This document shows, in pieces, positions 8,285-36,031 of a DNA stretch of 36,031 nt. Within the stretch, counting starts at the first letter, position 1; the number at the start of each line of letters is the position of its first letter. Source of the DNA: a virus; the IMG/VR virus record IMGVR_UViG_3300037119_001860, positions 1 through 36,031 of that record; one strand, given 5' to 3'. Made by a program: the position numbers and the translations under genes. The notes beneath the pieces were generated by a model that saw only the letters and a program-made list of their open reading frames with translations, had not been told where the DNA came from and did not search any database.

Positions 8285-9836
8285 AAGGATCGCCCGACGC
8301 AACTTCATCGACCGAGCCAAGGCCGATGCCTTCATGCTGGCTGCTGATCGCCTCGATCCTCAGCCGAGTCCGTACCAGAACGATCCCGCCGGCTGGGTTA
8401 CCGCCAAGACTCACGAGTACCTGTGGTCGAAGCAGAAGGAGATTCTCCAGAGTCTGCGCGACAACCGTTACACCGCGGTGATGTCGTGCCACGACTCGGG
8501 CAAGTCTTTCATCGCTTCTCGCGCCATGGCTTGGTGGGGTGACGTCCACCCGCCGATGGAAGCGTTCGTTGTCAGCACCGCGCCAACGTGGCCGCAGGTG
8601 AAGACGATCCTCTGGCGCGAGCTTATGCGCGCGCACACCAAGGGACGGCTCGACGGACGCATTACTCTCGACTGCCACTGGCGTCTCGGCAAGCGGTATG
8701 ACTCGGAGATCATCGGGTACGGTCGTAAGCCAGCTGACTACGATGCGTCCGGCTTCCAGGGCATCCACCAGAAGTACGTGCTGGCCGTGATCGATGAGGC
8801 CGGCGGCGTCCCCAAGGTGCTGTTCGATGCGGTTGACACGATCGTCACCAACAAGCATTGCCGCGTGCTGGCGATCGGCAACCCGGATGACCCGTCCAGC
8901 TACTTCCGTGAAATCTGCATGAATGAGAAGCTGGGCTGGAACGTCATCCAGATCGACGGCCTTCAGACCCCCAACTTTACCGAGGAGTACGTACCCGCCC
9001 ACCTGCGCGACCTGCTGCTCTCGCCCGAGTGGGTTGAGGAGCGCCGCGTGCGCTGGGGCGAGGCGTCGCCGCTCTTTACCTCCAAGGTGCGCGGCCGGTT
9101 CCCTGACACGTCCGATGATGCGCTGATCCCGCCTGCGTGGCTATATCCTGCGATCAATAGGAAGCTGAGCGGCACGGGTCGCGAGCCGGGCGTGTACGGA
9201 TTGGACATCGCGCGATCTGGCACCGATCGCTCCGTCTGCTATCGTAACCGCGGAGGGTACGTCAACGAGGTCTTCAAGACCGGACACCCGGACACGATGC
9301 ACGTGGCCCGTCTCATGCAGGCGGACATGGCGGGGAAGCGAGGAGTACGTGCCGTTGCGGATGAGGTTGGCGTTGGCGCTGGGGCTGTTGACAAACTCCG
9401 TGAGGACGGGGTTGACGTCTACGGGTACAACGGCGGTCGTATGGCTGTTGATACCGAGCACTTCGTCAATGCTCGCTCCGAAGACTTCTGGTATCTCCGG
9501 ACTCGATTCCAGGACGGCACTATCTCCATCCCGGATGACGATGACCTCAAGAATCAGCTGCTTCAGCTCAAGTGGTCGATTCTACCGCGCACTGAGAAGA
9601 TTGTCGTAGAGTCCAAGGAAGACTACAAGAAGCGCACCAATTCTACGAGCCCCGATGAAGCTGACGCGTTGATGATGTGCTTCGTAGGGGACGGGGCGAA
9701 CGCTGCCGAGCCACTGGAGAACCTCGTGTCCGAACTTGATGATCATGGCCGGAGTGACGAGGAAGTGGCGAACGCATTTGGCCATTCGTTCTCGGAGCCA
9801 GGTACTATTGCTGACGTCCTGGAGGTGGTCTGGTAA
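8277..9836 (+). CDS. terL: Terminase large subunit (519 aa)
   Basis: The motor ATPase and nuclease that packages DNA into the head. Residues 71-77 are the Walker A motif CHDSGKS and residues 168-175 give the Walker B VLAVIDEA (Asp173, Glu174). The nuclease half has LDIARSGTDRS (Asp310), VADEVG (Asp362) and SPDEADALMM (Asp460, Asp463), the usual metal-binding acidic set of the RNase H-like nuclease. I chose the ATG at 8277 over 8247 because GGGAGGG lies at ideal spacing; it overlaps the previous gene by 8 bases. It is followed by the portal gene, overlapping at TAATG. Confidence 0.96.
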   Translation: MPRRIARRNFIDRAKADAFMLAADRLDPQPSPYQNDPAGWVTAKTHEYLWSKQKEILQSLRDNRYTAVMSCHDSGKSFIASRAMAWWGDVHPPMEAFVVSTAPTWPQVKTILWRELMRAHTKGRLDGRITLDCHWRLGKRYDSEIIGYGRKPADYDASGFQGIHQKYVLAVIDEAGGVPKVLFDAVDTIVTNKHCRVLAIGNPDDPSSYFREICMNEKLGWNVIQIDGLQTPNFTEEYVPAHLRDLLLSPEWVEERRVRWGEASPLFTSKVRGRFPDTSDDALIPPAWLYPAINRKLSGTGREPGVYGLDIARSGTDRSVCYRNRGGYVNEVFKTGHPDTMHVARLMQADMAGKRGVRAVADEVGVGAGAVDKLREDGVDVYGYNGGRMAVDTEHFVNARSEDFWYLRTRFQDGTISIPDDDDLKNQLLQLKWSILPRTEKIVVESKEDYKKRTNSTSPDEADALMMCFVGDGANAAEPLENLVSELDDHGRSDEEVANAFGHSFSEPGTIADVLEVVW

Positions 9837-11974
9837 TGGCGCTGCCCGATGCACCGAAGGGCCAGCGCTCCGAAGCGTTCCTGGATGTCTCCTTCCCGGG
9901 ACTGCCCGAGTGGATGGGCGGGAACTGGGAGTTCTGGGCCAACGATATGGAGCGCGTACCGGAGCTCAAGTGGCCCCGGTCGGCGCAGACCTACGAGACC
10001 ATGCGCACGGACTCGCAGGTGGACTCGCTCTGGCAGGGCACCACACTCGGCATCCAGCGCTATCGGTGGTTCATCAATCCGAATGGCGCTTCCGAGGCGA
10101 TGGTACAGGCATGCCATGAGGACTTTGGCTTGCCCGTGCTCGATCAGGAGCAGCTGGACATCCCGCGCTCGCGCGATCGGTTCAGCTGGAATGATCACCT
10201 GCGCCTCGCGCTGCTGAGCAAGGTCTTCGGCCATTCGTTCTTCGAGCAGGTTGGCGAGATCAGGGATAATCTCTGGCGGCTCCAGAAGCTCGCATATATC
10301 CCGCCACGAACGATCAAGGACATCAAGGCTGCCGACTCGGGCGGCCTGATCTGGATCGCTCAGCAGGCGCGCACGTTCGACCAGAGCGTGCCAAACGGAC
10401 TGCGCAAGCTGCCGGTCAGCCGGCTCGTCGCGTACGTCAATCAGCGCGAGGGCGCGAACTGGGTCGGTCGGTCGATGTTCCGGTCGATCTACAAGAACTG
10501 GCTGTCTAAGGATCGCCTGCTGCGACTTGACCTGATCAAGCACGAGCGCAATAGCCTTGGCATCCCGGGCATCAAGCTGCCCGATCGCGCCTCGACCCAG
10601 CAGATTGCTGCTGCCCAGCAGATCGCGTCGGCGCTCAAGTCGGGTGAATACAGCGGGCTCACGCTCCCGGGCGGGATGGAGCTAGACCTACATGGCGTCA
10701 AGGGCTCGACGTCGAACCCGCTCGATTCGATCCGATACCATGACGAGCAGATGGCCCGCAAGTTCCTCCAGATGTTCGCGCAGCTGGGGACGACGAGTTA
10801 TGGATCCCGCGCGCTGTCGGAGTCGTTCATTGACTACTTCAGCCTGTCGCAGATGGCGCTCGCCGAGGATATCCGCGATACCTTCAACCAGCACGTCATC
10901 GAAGACTACGTTGACTGGAACGAGGGTCCGGACGCGAAGTGTCCGATCATCCAGTTCGACAGGAACGAAGACCCTGACCTCGCAACTGCTGACTTGGTGG
11001 CTGCGGTTGACAAGGGCATCCTCACCGTCGATCTAGAGACTGAGAATTGGCTTCGCCGGCGCTGGAACCTCCCCAAGATCGATGAGGCGGAGCGCGAGGA
11101 GATCAAGGAAGCCGAGAAGCCACCTGCGCCTGTTGCTCCGTCAACGGACACCCCTCCCACTCCGAACAAGGCGCAGAGGGACGCCCGTCAGGCCCACCGG
11201 GAACCTGTGCATGGATCTTTCCGTGCCCCCGCTGGTGCCTGGCGGGTGGCTAAGCCTCACGAGGTTACTGCTGCCGCCGACTTTGATGGCATGCAGACCG
11301 AGTGGAAGACCTTCCAGACAAGTCTGTTGCAGGACTGGGCCGGCATACGTGCTGAGCAGGTGGAGTCGCTGGCGGACCAGATCAAGTCCGGGGCCGATGC
11401 GGCTTCGCTGTACGCTCCTCGCATCGGCGCTGATGAACTGATCGACGCAGGAATGGGGATGGCCAATGCGGGGATTCAGGCGGCGACTGCGGAGTTGGTG
11501 GCGCAGGGCCGGGAACTCACAGCGGTCACCGATACCGAGGCCAGTCTGATCGTCTCGCGTCAGGCCACTCTCGTGCAGGAGATGATGGCAACCGGGCTGG
11601 AGCAGGCTGCGATGACCAGGATGTCTCGCGCCGCCACCGGAGACCTAGCTGCTGACGCGCTCGATGTGGTGAAGTATCTCGATGACCTTAGCCCCGCCTG
11701 GCTAGAGGATCAGCTTGGTGGATATCTCACCGCAGCACAGAATACCGGCAGGGCCTTGGTGTTCGAGCGGGCTGAGGCAGAGAGCGGTGCCGGCCTGGTC
11801 TACTACGCCAGCGAGATCATGGATACCAACACCTGCAAGAACTGTCGCCAGATCGACGGATCGCAGTATGCTACCATAGGTGATGCACGCCAGGCCTACC
11901 CACTGGGTGGGTACAAGAACTGCAAGGGCGGCGCTCGCTGCCGGGGGACGCTTGTAGCGGTGGTACAGCAATGA
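9836..11974 (+). CDS. Portal protein fused to a MuF-like head protein (712 aa)
   Basis: About the first 430 residues resemble Mu gp29/DUF935-type portal proteins: an early WPRSAQTYETMRTDSQV segment, VFGHSFFEQV and the SRLVAYVNQREGANWVGRSM stretch. The portal ring is the DNA channel at the head vertex. After a proline-rich linker (about 430-460) comes a helical region and then, in the last 60 residues, a MuF-like domain: DTNTCKNCRQIDGSQY, YPLGGYKNCKGGARCRGT. The Cys pairs and the spacing to RCRG match Mu gpF-type minor head proteins. In many phages these are two adjacent genes; here they are one frame with no internal stop. The next gene overlaps by 4 bases. Confidence 0.88.
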   Translation: MALPDAPKGQRSEAFLDVSFPGLPEWMGGNWEFWANDMERVPELKWPRSAQTYETMRTDSQVDSLWQGTTLGIQRYRWFINPNGASEAMVQACHEDFGLPVLDQEQLDIPRSRDRFSWNDHLRLALLSKVFGHSFFEQVGEIRDNLWRLQKLAYIPPRTIKDIKAADSGGLIWIAQQARTFDQSVPNGLRKLPVSRLVAYVNQREGANWVGRSMFRSIYKNWLSKDRLLRLDLIKHERNSLGIPGIKLPDRASTQQIAAAQQIASALKSGEYSGLTLPGGMELDLHGVKGSTSNPLDSIRYHDEQMARKFLQMFAQLGTTSYGSRALSESFIDYFSLSQMALAEDIRDTFNQHVIEDYVDWNEGPDAKCPIIQFDRNEDPDLATADLVAAVDKGILTVDLETENWLRRRWNLPKIDEAEREEIKEAEKPPAPVAPSTDTPPTPNKAQRDARQAHREPVHGSFRAPAGAWRVAKPHEVTAAADFDGMQTEWKTFQTSLLQDWAGIRAEQVESLADQIKSGADAASLYAPRIGADELIDAGMGMANAGIQAATAELVAQGRELTAVTDTEASLIVSRQATLVQEMMATGLEQAAMTRMSRAATGDLAADALDVVKYLDDLSPAWLEDQLGGYLTAAQNTGRALVFERAEAESGAGLVYYASEIMDTNTCKNCRQIDGSQYATIGDARQAYPLGGYKNCKGGARCRGTLVAVVQQ

Positions 11975-17017: not shown

Positions 17018-17262
17018 TGACCGACAAGGACAAGCCGTCCAACAGGGACGGTGACCTGGTCGATGTCTGGTACAACGCTTCGGCGTTGCCGATCGATCTG
17101 TTCGACGGGCGTATGGTCGCGCCCGGCACGGTGCTGAGGGAGTCGATCCCGATGAACCAGCACAACAAGTTCCATGCGGACACGGGCTCGCTCAAGCAGC
17201 TGACCCGTGCCGAGCTAGCGGCGCTCGACGCCAAGGAGAAGGAGGAGGTGACCAATGGCTAG
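17017..17262 (+). CDS. Small hypothetical tail-region protein (81 aa)
   Basis: A GTG start overlaps the previous TAG, and its last codons overlap the sheath ATG (17255) by 8 bases, so it is translated in a chain with both neighbours. The product has a short beta-like segment (DVWYNASALPIDLFDGRMVAPGTVL) and a charged helix (RAELAALDAKEKEEVTNG). Small proteins at this place next to the sheath are common in contractile phages, but their role is not known. No family is recognised. Confidence 0.55.
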   Translation: MTDKDKPSNRDGDLVDVWYNASALPIDLFDGRMVAPGTVLRESIPMNQHNKFHADTGSLKQLTRAELAALDAKEKEEVTNG

Positions 17263-18685
17263 GCCCGGTGTCGAAGTCACGGTGCGTGACGCAGCGCCTC
17301 CGCGTTCGGCGCCAGTCGGCATCGATGCCTGGTTCGTCACGGGCATCTCGGAGAAGGGCGACGCTACCGCTCCCGTGCTGGTGCGCGGGTTCAGCGAGTT
17401 CCAGGACATGTTCGGCTCTCGACTGGCCAACTCGCTCCTGTACGACTCGCTGGACACATTCTTCCGCGAGGGCGGTACGCGCGCGTACGTCAGCCGCGTG
17501 GTCGGGCCGTCGCCCGTCAAGGCCGGTGTCACGCTGGTTGATGGATCGGCCGGCAACGTGCTGCGTGTCGATGCCAAGGACTACGGCTCCTATGGCAACT
17601 CGCTCAACGTGACGGTCGTGGCGGCGGGATCGGACTACACGATCACCATCACGCACGATACGCTCGGCACGCTGGAGACCAGCCCGCTGCTCGCTGACAA
17701 GCAGGCGGCGATCGACTGGTCGGCATCGTCCAGCTACGTGCGCATCTCGTCTGCTGGCGTGTCCGTGCTCGATCCTGCTGCTGTCGCCGCTGCGTCCTTC
17801 ACGGGTGGCACTGACGACTCGGGAAACGCGGTCGAGGCCAACTGGACGGCGGCGCTCGCTCGCTTCACGTCCGATCTCGGCCCTGGCCAGGTCTCTGCGC
17901 CTGGCCGGACGACTTCTGCTGCACAGCTGGCGCTCCTCGCGCACGCTGCGTCGCAGAATCGCGTGGCGCTGATCGATCCGGTCAGCGGCGGCGACAAGGC
18001 GACACTGATCGCTGCTGCTGCCGCGCTCCGGTCGGACTCCAACGCTCGCTACGGCGCGATGTTCGGGCCGTGGGCGCAGGTGCCAGGGATCGTGGCCGGA
18101 ACGCTGCGGAGCGTGCCCTACAGCGCCGTGCAGGCGGGGCTCATGGCGCGGCAGGTGCGCGCGAATGAGCCGGCCGCGGGCTTCAACGGACGCGCGCAGT
18201 ACGCGGTCGGCCTGGTCACGTCCTTCGTGGACACCGATCGGGAAGACCTGAACGAAGCTGGCGTCAACATCGCTCGCGTGCTCAATGGCGGAGTGACGAC
18301 GTACGGCTACCGCACGTTGGTCTCTCCGACCGGCCTGCCGGGCTGGCTCTCGCTCGGCGCGACTCGGCTGGTCATGGAGGCCAAGGGCAAGTTCGAGGCC
18401 ATCGGCGAGCAGTTCGCGTTCGCCCAGATCGACGGCGAGGGCCGAGTGTTCGCCAAGCTCGGCGGCCAGCTGACCGGTGTCTGCATCAACTACTACGAGG
18501 AGCAGCAGCTGTACGGTGCCACTCCTCAGGATGCGTTCGCGGTCGATACCGGCGAGGCCGTCAACACTCCGACGACGATCGCTGCCGGTGACATCCGTGC
18601 CGTGGTGTACCTGAAGGTCTCGCCCTTCGCGGAGCTGGTTCGCATCGACATCGTCAAGAAGCAGATCACGGAGGCTCTGGTCTGA
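17255..18685 (+). CDS. Tail sheath protein (476 aa)
   Basis: Tail sheath subunits polymerise around the tube and contract to drive it through the cell envelope. The N-terminus MARPGVEVTVRD and the following APVGIDAWFVTGISEKGD and REGGTRAYVSRVVG are hallmark sheath motifs. The C-terminal third contains YGYRTLVSP, WLSLGATRLVMEAKGKF and INYYEEQQLYGATPQDAF, typical of the conserved sheath end. GAGAAGGAGGAGG precedes the start. It overlaps the tube gene by one base, an order (sheath then tube) shared by contractile-tail systems, and defines the phage as a myovirus. Confidence 0.95.
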   Translation: MARPGVEVTVRDAAPPRSAPVGIDAWFVTGISEKGDATAPVLVRGFSEFQDMFGSRLANSLLYDSLDTFFREGGTRAYVSRVVGPSPVKAGVTLVDGSAGNVLRVDAKDYGSYGNSLNVTVVAAGSDYTITITHDTLGTLETSPLLADKQAAIDWSASSSYVRISSAGVSVLDPAAVAAASFTGGTDDSGNAVEANWTAALARFTSDLGPGQVSAPGRTTSAAQLALLAHAASQNRVALIDPVSGGDKATLIAAAAALRSDSNARYGAMFGPWAQVPGIVAGTLRSVPYSAVQAGLMARQVRANEPAAGFNGRAQYAVGLVTSFVDTDREDLNEAGVNIARVLNGGVTTYGYRTLVSPTGLPGWLSLGATRLVMEAKGKFEAIGEQFAFAQIDGEGRVFAKLGGQLTGVCINYYEEQQLYGATPQDAFAVDTGEAVNTPTTIAAGDIRAVVYLKVSPFAELVRIDIVKKQITEALV

Positions 18686-34850: not shown

Positions 34851-34918
34851 CCGTAGAGACCGGGCTAGCGTCGCAGGAAGGGTATTCGTTGCCCGAGACG
34901 CTAGCCCGGTCTCTACGG
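34851..34918 (+). terminator. Perfect 22-bp hairpin after the helicase gene
   Basis: The 22-base arms 34851-34872 and 34897-34918 are exact reverse complements, with a 24-base loop. Arms begin CCGTAGAGACCGGG and end TCTCTACGG. It starts 18 bases after the helicase stop. No T-tract. It is the longest perfect stem I found in the window and would form a very strong terminator or a cruciform in supercoiled DNA. Confidence 0.7.
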
Positions 34919-35095: not shown

Positions 35096-35350
35096 ATGGC
35101 ACAAGTCATCATGACGCGCGAGCAGATCGTCACCATCGAGAAGCTCAGCGAGACATTCGACCAGATCGACGATCGCGTCAACTATCCGTTGCGAGTGCCA
35201 GGTATCGAGCACCGGGTTTGGCGTTTGGTACAAGACCCCGAGGGGGATGGCAGTATAGACCTCTGTGAAACGAAGTCGGAGCTTGGCATTCGGATCGGCG
35301 TGAATGGCGATATCAGGCCGATTCCTGATGCGAGCCGACGCTATCCATGA
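35096..35350 (+). CDS. Small hypothetical protein (84 aa)
   Basis: ATG at 35096 follows GGAGG at good spacing; an in-frame ATG at 35084 sits too close to its own GGGAGG. The product starts MAQVIMTREQIVTIEKLSETFDQIDDRVNYPLRVPG and is acidic, with one predicted helix and a strand-rich end (IDLCETKSELGIRIGVNGDIRPIPDA). No family is recognised. It is isolated between two non-coding regions with strong structure. Function unknown. Confidence 0.6.
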   Translation: MAQVIMTREQIVTIEKLSETFDQIDDRVNYPLRVPGIEHRVWRLVQDPEGDGSIDLCETKSELGIRIGVNGDIRPIPDASRRYP

Positions 35351-35401
35351 TGCGAAGCCCGCGCTAGACGTTTGGCGTCGGACCGTGCTACGCTTCGCAT
35401 C
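35349..35401. repeat. 10-bp inverted repeat at the end of the small gene
   Basis: GATGCGAAGC (35349-35358) and GCTTCGCATC (35392-35401) are exact reverse complements, 33 bases apart. The inner part has GACG/CGTC (35367-35379). The left arm touches the TGA stop of the preceding gene (35348-35350). Confidence 0.65.
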
Positions 35402-35531
35402 CCGGGTGACTGACCGGCGCGAATGGGGTGCGGCTTCTGCTGGTAATAAGGCTAGAGGCGACCTTCGTCAAGTCGACGCGCGTCGCAGGCGTAACGCGCC
35501 GGTCAGTCAGCGCAGGCATCGAAAGGGCGAC
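35351..35531. ncRNA. Candidate structured non-coding RNA or control element
   Basis: In this 181-base gap, two inverted repeats follow each other: 35349-35401 (10-bp arms) and 35407-35509 (15-bp arms). Between the second pair lie smaller palindromes such as CGACGCGCGTCG (35474-35485). The nuclease gene starts at 35532, 22 bases after the second pair. This could be a terminator, a cis-acting leader or a separate RNA. No known RNA family is recognised. Confidence 0.35.
35407..35509. repeat. Perfect 15-bp inverted repeat with 73-base interior
   Basis: TGACTGACCGGCGCG (35407-35421) and CGCGCCGGTCAGTCA (35495-35509) are exact reverse complements. The interior holds further self-complementary runs, including GCGAC (35458-35462) with GTCGC (35482-35486). 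The arms would close a large branched RNA or DNA structure. Confidence 0.7.
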
Positions 35532-36031
35532 ATGGCAAAGATTATTCCAATGGTGAGCGGGCGAAGCGACGGCGCAGCTACACCCAAGCCGCGACGCGTG
35601 AGCCGTGCGTCCGGGGCTCCCCCTGCCCCGGACGCGCTCCCCATGCTGCGCACGAGCGAACGTAAGTCATACAACCGCTGCCGGCAGGCGTGGTGGTGGG
35701 AGTACGTCGAGCGGTGGAAGCCCAAGGACGAGCGCAAGGCGCTGACCTTCGGTACGCTCATCCACGCAGCACTAGAGTTGTACATGCCGCCCGGCAAGAA
35801 GCGCGGGCCGCATCCCTCAACCACCTTCGCTGCGCTCTACGATCTGCACATCAAGCAGGGCGGGCTTGGTCTCGGCAAGAAGGACGACGAGGGCGAGTGG
35901 ATGCACGGACGCGACCTTGGCATCGATATGCTCGATGGCTACGTAGAGACCTATGCTGAGCACGATGCCAGGTACGAGGTCATAGCCAGCGAGCACACGT
36001 TCCAGACGCCAATCCTCGATCCCGAGACCTC
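35532..36031 (+). CDS. RecB-like PD-(D/E)XK nuclease, N-terminal part (truncated by window)
   Basis: The frame is open from ATG 35532 to the end of the window (166 codons). After a basic disordered start, LPMLRTSERKSYNRCRQAWWWEYVERWKPKDERKALTFGTLIHAALELYM is the characteristic opening of RecB/Cas4-like nucleases: a Ser-x-x-x-Tyr-x-x-Cys-x helix, then the GTLIHAALE helix containing His. The catalytic Asp, Glu and Lys should follow beyond the window. Such phage enzymes degrade or process DNA ends in replication and recombination, consistent with the neighbouring SNF2 helicase and the resolvase. AAAGGGCGAC precedes the start. Confidence 0.8.
   Translation, partial: MAKIIPMVSGRSDGAATPKPRRVSRASGAPPAPDALPMLRTSERKSYNRCRQAWWWEYVERWKPKDERKALTFGTLIHAALELYMPPGKKRGPHPSTTFAALYDLHIKQGGLGLGKKDDEGEWMHGRDLGIDMLDGYVETYAEHDARYEVIASEHTFQTPILDPET

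Follow-up and report, generated by a model that had tools for sequence, protein, structure and literature searches.

Two inverted repeats ahead of a nuclease gene in an actinophage-like phage: a possible intergenic control region with a leader hairpin

Why does a gap of 181 bases between two phage genes carry two consecutive perfect inverted repeats, and do these repeats act in RNA or in DNA? The question is raised by the 36,031-bp window (G000), the whole stretch of DNA analyzed here, which is a linear IMG/VR record and a fragment of an actinophage-like tailed phage. Profile matches (Pfam, PHROG) support the portal, terminase, tape measure, SNF2-type helicase and PD-(D/E)XK nuclease encoded in it, and a putative contractile-tail sheath was read from the ORF sequence at 17255-18685. 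The relatives of its proteins in phage records come mostly from actinophages (Gordonia, Mycobacterium, Microbacterium, Streptomyces, Nocardia and others), and a search of bacterial genomes for the host with the nuclease gave a single weak match. The portal protein (Portal_Mu, 9836-11974) matches phrog_595 (head maturation protease) over its C-terminal 63 residues, and looks as if the portal and a second head protein had been fused.

The gap (35351-35531; 65% G+C, with no AT-rich stretch) lies between an 84-aa ORF (35096..35350, + strand, from the ORF list and sequence), preceded by a GGAGG ribosome-binding site, and a gene for a PD-(D/E)XK (Cas4/RecB-like) nuclease (35532..36031, + strand), which is cut by the end of the window. 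The initial annotation had reported the gap, both repeats and a nuclease gene directly downstream, all of which were confirmed, the repeats at the exact positions given; the nuclease matches PF12705 (E 5e-7) and the phrog_1218 exonuclease (E 1e-32), and is 62% identical to its relative in G003. For the 84-aa ORF, neither a Pfam or PHROG match nor a tblastn relative in the fetched related loci was found. The order of helicase, small ORFs and nuclease is common to the window and its relatives, and in isolates the helicase is followed by small genes, the nuclease and usually a RecA-like gene. A nuclease start at GTG 35406, from which the frame is open through the second repeat, was disfavored because alignment with the proteins of the relatives begins only near residue 33 of the form starting at ATG 35532, and because this ATG is preceded by an AAAGG ribosome-binding site (35522..35526, + strand), which lies outside the stem of the second repeat. 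An 11-bp perfect inverted repeat is also present at 35607-35635, where the nuclease gene encodes its variable N terminus.

The first repeat (IR1; 35349-35358/35392-35401, + strand) is a perfect 10-bp inverted repeat with a loop of 33, whose first bases overlap the TGA stop codon of the 84-aa ORF. The second (IR2) is an exact 15-bp inverted repeat on the + strand, in which the left arm TGACTGACCGGCGCG (35407..35421) and the right arm CGCGCCGGTCAGTCA (35495..35509), after which there is no U-tract, enclose a 73-nt loop (35422..35494) with weak internal helices. The initial annotation had judged two such pairs unlikely by chance, and this was borne out for IR2 and not for IR1. None of 5000 dinucleotide shuffles of the gap contained a stem of at least 15 bp, and IR2, the second-longest perfect stem in the window, is far beyond chance. 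On the other hand, stems of at least 10 bp appeared in the gap shuffles with P = 0.03, and five perfect 10-bp stems were seen in the whole window vs 4.2 expected; IR1 alone is thus unremarkable and near chance level. Folded separately, IR1 (-25.6 kcal/mol, z -3.3) and positions 35400-35516 (-57.5 kcal/mol, z -3.0) did better than the whole of 35340-35540, the interval that had been proposed for folding, which reached a z of only -2.06. The additional palindromes described within the 73-base loop are present but short, and the inner fold is poorly determined (MFE frequency 0.008). The loop also holds a short frame at 35423-35449 (ATG GGG TGC GGC TTC TGC TGG TAA TAA), which reads MGCGFCW, with two Cys, one Trp and tandem stops, and has no ribosome-binding site.

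The strongest stem of the window, exceeding both repeats, is located in the preceding gap, where a perfect 22-bp hairpin with a loop of 24 (34851..34918, + strand; stem scan and fold), the longest in the window, follows the stop codon of the helicase. Positions 34843-34929 fold with -58.7 kcal/mol (z -7.8), and no U-tract follows; this hairpin is a U-less parallel to IR1, which may itself form a U-less hairpin at the 3' end of the small gene. U-less (I-shaped) terminator hairpins occur in actinobacteria and their phages. Both IR1 and the 34851-34918 hairpin resemble them in being G+C-rich, directly after stop codons and without a T-run, whereas IR1 differs in its near-chance level, and termination here is putative. 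U-tract intrinsic termination was rejected, as no site combining a hairpin with a T-run was found on the + strand, nor any T-run after IR1 or IR2.

Copies of the element and known classes were searched for in several collections. Rfam 15 covariance models (E up to 5) gave nothing beyond chance in 35340-35540, and a single tRNA only in the relatives; the hairpin sequences had no match in phage and plasmid records. The exact IR1 pattern was not found in IMG/VR, whereas the exact IR2 arm was found in 32 contigs, none of them with the partner arm (up to 2 mismatches, within 400 nt), and the inner 10 bp of IR2 were found as a wide inverted repeat in 35 IMG/VR contigs, none with a relative of the nuclease. 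The proposal of a new phage RNA, put forward in the initial annotation, gained no support, with no Rfam family and no sequence relative in phage or plasmid records or in the arm-matching IMG/VR contigs. A mobile element (MITE) was also rejected, as there is no flanking target-site duplication and no copy in the window, the arm-matching IMG/VR contigs, phages or plasmids. A perfect inverted repeat with 29-nt arms, common to two IMG/VR contigs unrelated to the window phage (L136:10556-10643 and L137:889-976), is possibly a small mobile element.

Described actinophage repeats were compared as well. The ESAS of cluster K mycobacteriophages are 17-bp imperfect repeats with 4-13 bp spacers, which lie beside a 13-bp SAS and recur genome-wide (PMC3203893). 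The likeness is that an actinophage has inverted repeats ahead of early-gene starts, whereas the window has one pair, a 73-bp spacer and no SAS: the 13-bp SAS (GGGATAGGAGCCC) gave one 2-mismatch match far off, as by chance, and ESAS-like recurrence at several gene starts was rejected, the IR2 arms occurring only at IR2 in the window. The 17-bp dyad repeats of cluster O mycobacteriophages (7 bp arms, 3 bp spacer, more than 30 copies; PMC4351075) are likewise dyad-symmetric intergenic DNA of an actinophage, but the element here is single-copy. GATGCGAAGC, considered as a repeated operator, was not over-represented. The window element fits none of the known RNA families, U-tract terminators or described phage repeat classes.

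Related loci were recovered from IMG/VR, with 66-70% helicase identity in three contigs (L051, L052 and L053, of which L051 and L052 carry the same nuclease) and roughly 30-40% in about 38 more, and in nearly all of them the nuclease follows the helicase region. Twenty-two distinct related loci have a promoter upstream of the nuclease with a 17-nt spacer and a TANNNT -10 box (group pattern: -35 T[TA]GAC[TG]/TAGCGC, 17 nt, TANNNT -10), although start codons and promoters of the relatives were picked by eye and some are uncertain, notably in L055 and L057. The window's highest-scoring + strand site between helicase and nuclease, TAGACG-18-TACGCT (35365..35394), is a putative promoter enclosed by IR1; it scores 8.5 bits vs 12.7-20 in all relatives but one and ranks 7th on the whole + strand. 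Gap-sized shuffles reach 8.5 bits in 5.4% of cases (P=0.054), and the window promoter, proposed from this weak match, is therefore a suggestion only. Transcription from it would start at about 35400, so that IR2 would begin about 7 nt downstream.

The leaders of the relatives, taken between the predicted start and the ribosome-binding site, are more stably folded than their shuffles, with a mean z of -1.7, and exceed random segments from these loci in structure (p=0.009); the mean z of segments just upstream of their promoters is -0.47. This effect is carried by about half of the relatives, chiefly those with long leaders, the other half being unstructured. Structured leaders include those of L057 (z -6.1), L055 (-5.0), L081 (-4.6), L088 (-4.5), L064 (-4.2) and L058 (-3.1), in which the stems share the same position and have unrelated sequences. 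A 110-nt scan found strongly folding segments at 2.7% in the 300 nt before the nuclease vs 0.7% elsewhere (about 4-fold), such segments being found at other places too. In the two closest relatives the leader is unstructured (z +0.26 and -0.75), and therefore the pairing is not kept in the nearest kin. The initial annotation had treated a lack of conserved pairing in related phages as evidence against the element, and for this element that lack is what was found in the two closest relatives; its suggestion of a leader control element fits the location, in view of the promoters of the 22 loci and the above-random average structure of their leaders. Wide inverted repeats were also seen about 250-370 nt upstream of the nuclease start, upstream of its promoter, in L070 and L078 (arms of 16 and 15 bp, loops of 65 and 78), where the arms differ on both sides as if compensating, and weaker ones upstream of the nuclease in L079, L072 and L069.

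Four relatives share a loop motif. In 978 kb of related loci, counting both strands, TGG[AG]TGGC[TA]C[CT][TC] has four occurrences, all in nuclease leaders (L055, L057, L067 and L072) and all at the tip of a hairpin (apical motif TGGRTGGCWCYY; L055:7257-7293, L057:8606-8643, L067:7260-7294 and L072:7292-7324). When the stems were aligned by hand, 10, 10, 7 and 10 of 10 positions paired, with several pairs changed on both sides, hinting at a real leader-RNA class, which would not include the window, where the motif is absent. The motif was picked after inspection, with about one chance match expected, and could alternatively mark where a short reading frame begins (ATG/GTG GCN).

We propose that the gap is an intergenic control region, in which IR1 would be the 3'-end hairpin of the small gene, followed by a weak promoter and by IR2 as the leader hairpin of the nuclease message, and we give this explanation about an even chance of being correct. 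The gap separates the small ORF from the next block of recombination genes, of which the nuclease is the first; IR1, beginning within the stop codon of the small ORF, would serve as a U-less 3'-end hairpin and also span the weak promoter; and the nuclease message, if started at about 35400, would carry IR2 some 7 nt from its 5' end, as a long hairpin in the leader that does not occlude the ribosome-binding site. A message reading through from the small gene, with no promoter in between and both repeats as intercistronic hairpins (U-less terminators or 3'-end/processing hairpins), is an appreciable but unlikely alternative. The start of IR1 within a stop codon, the similar placement of the 22-bp hairpin after the helicase stop, the little or no gap before the nuclease in several cultured relatives and the weak promoter match of the window would all suit it, but relatives having a gap show a well-matched promoter there, IR2 is closer to the nuclease than to the small gene, and neither repeat is followed by a U-tract. 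Compatible with any of these explanations, and somewhat short of an even chance, is the possibility that IR1 is a chance match and IR2 the sole feature; the shuffle and window counts speak for it, the good fold of IR1 and its start exactly at the stop codon against it.

Elements acting as DNA, whether as binding sites (an operator or a replication origin) or as terminal repeats bounding a small mobile element, are improbable. The arms of IR1 do flank the putative promoter, the region lies among replication and recombination genes, and IR2 looks like a 103-bp element bounded by terminal repeats of 15 bp; the half-sites, however, are not repeated elsewhere in the window, the gap has no AT-rich stretch, and there is neither a target duplication nor a second copy. 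The protein-binding DNA structure offered in the initial annotation is likewise not supported. Less probable still is a leader RNA that senses a ligand or peptide (a riboswitch or attenuator) through the 73-nt loop: in its favor are the size of this loop and the short frame within it, but that frame has no ribosome-binding site, the inner fold is ill-defined, no alternative U-tract terminator is present, Rfam gives no match, and the closest relatives show no conservation.

Under the proposed control region, the likely role of IR2 would be protection of the 5' end from decay, or tuning of transcription into the operon. Hairpins at the 5' end stabilize bacterial mRNA (PMC3997798), and IR2 is like such 5'-proximal hairpins in being strong, near the predicted 5' end and clear of the ribosome-binding site, and unlike them in its far larger loop (73 nt) and in a 5' end that is only predicted. 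The control region is of an ordinary kind, and the sequence in the window is itself a one-off. A bolder reading, which we consider rather doubtful, is that the nuclease operon of a broad actinophage-like lineage starts with a promoter and a leader hairpin whose position and shape are kept while the sequence turns over; the subset L055, L057, L067 and L072, with the loop UGGRUGGCWCYY and compensatory stems, would then be a new phage leader-RNA class, and IR2 of the window would be a member by position alone. Should the leader reading be right, IR2 would mark the start of the recombination operon in these uncultured phages, and its message would appear to be guarded or tuned by a 5' hairpin. For the discovery of a phage leader RNA, the recurring promoter and hairpin, and above all the loop motif of the four relatives, give a concrete lead.
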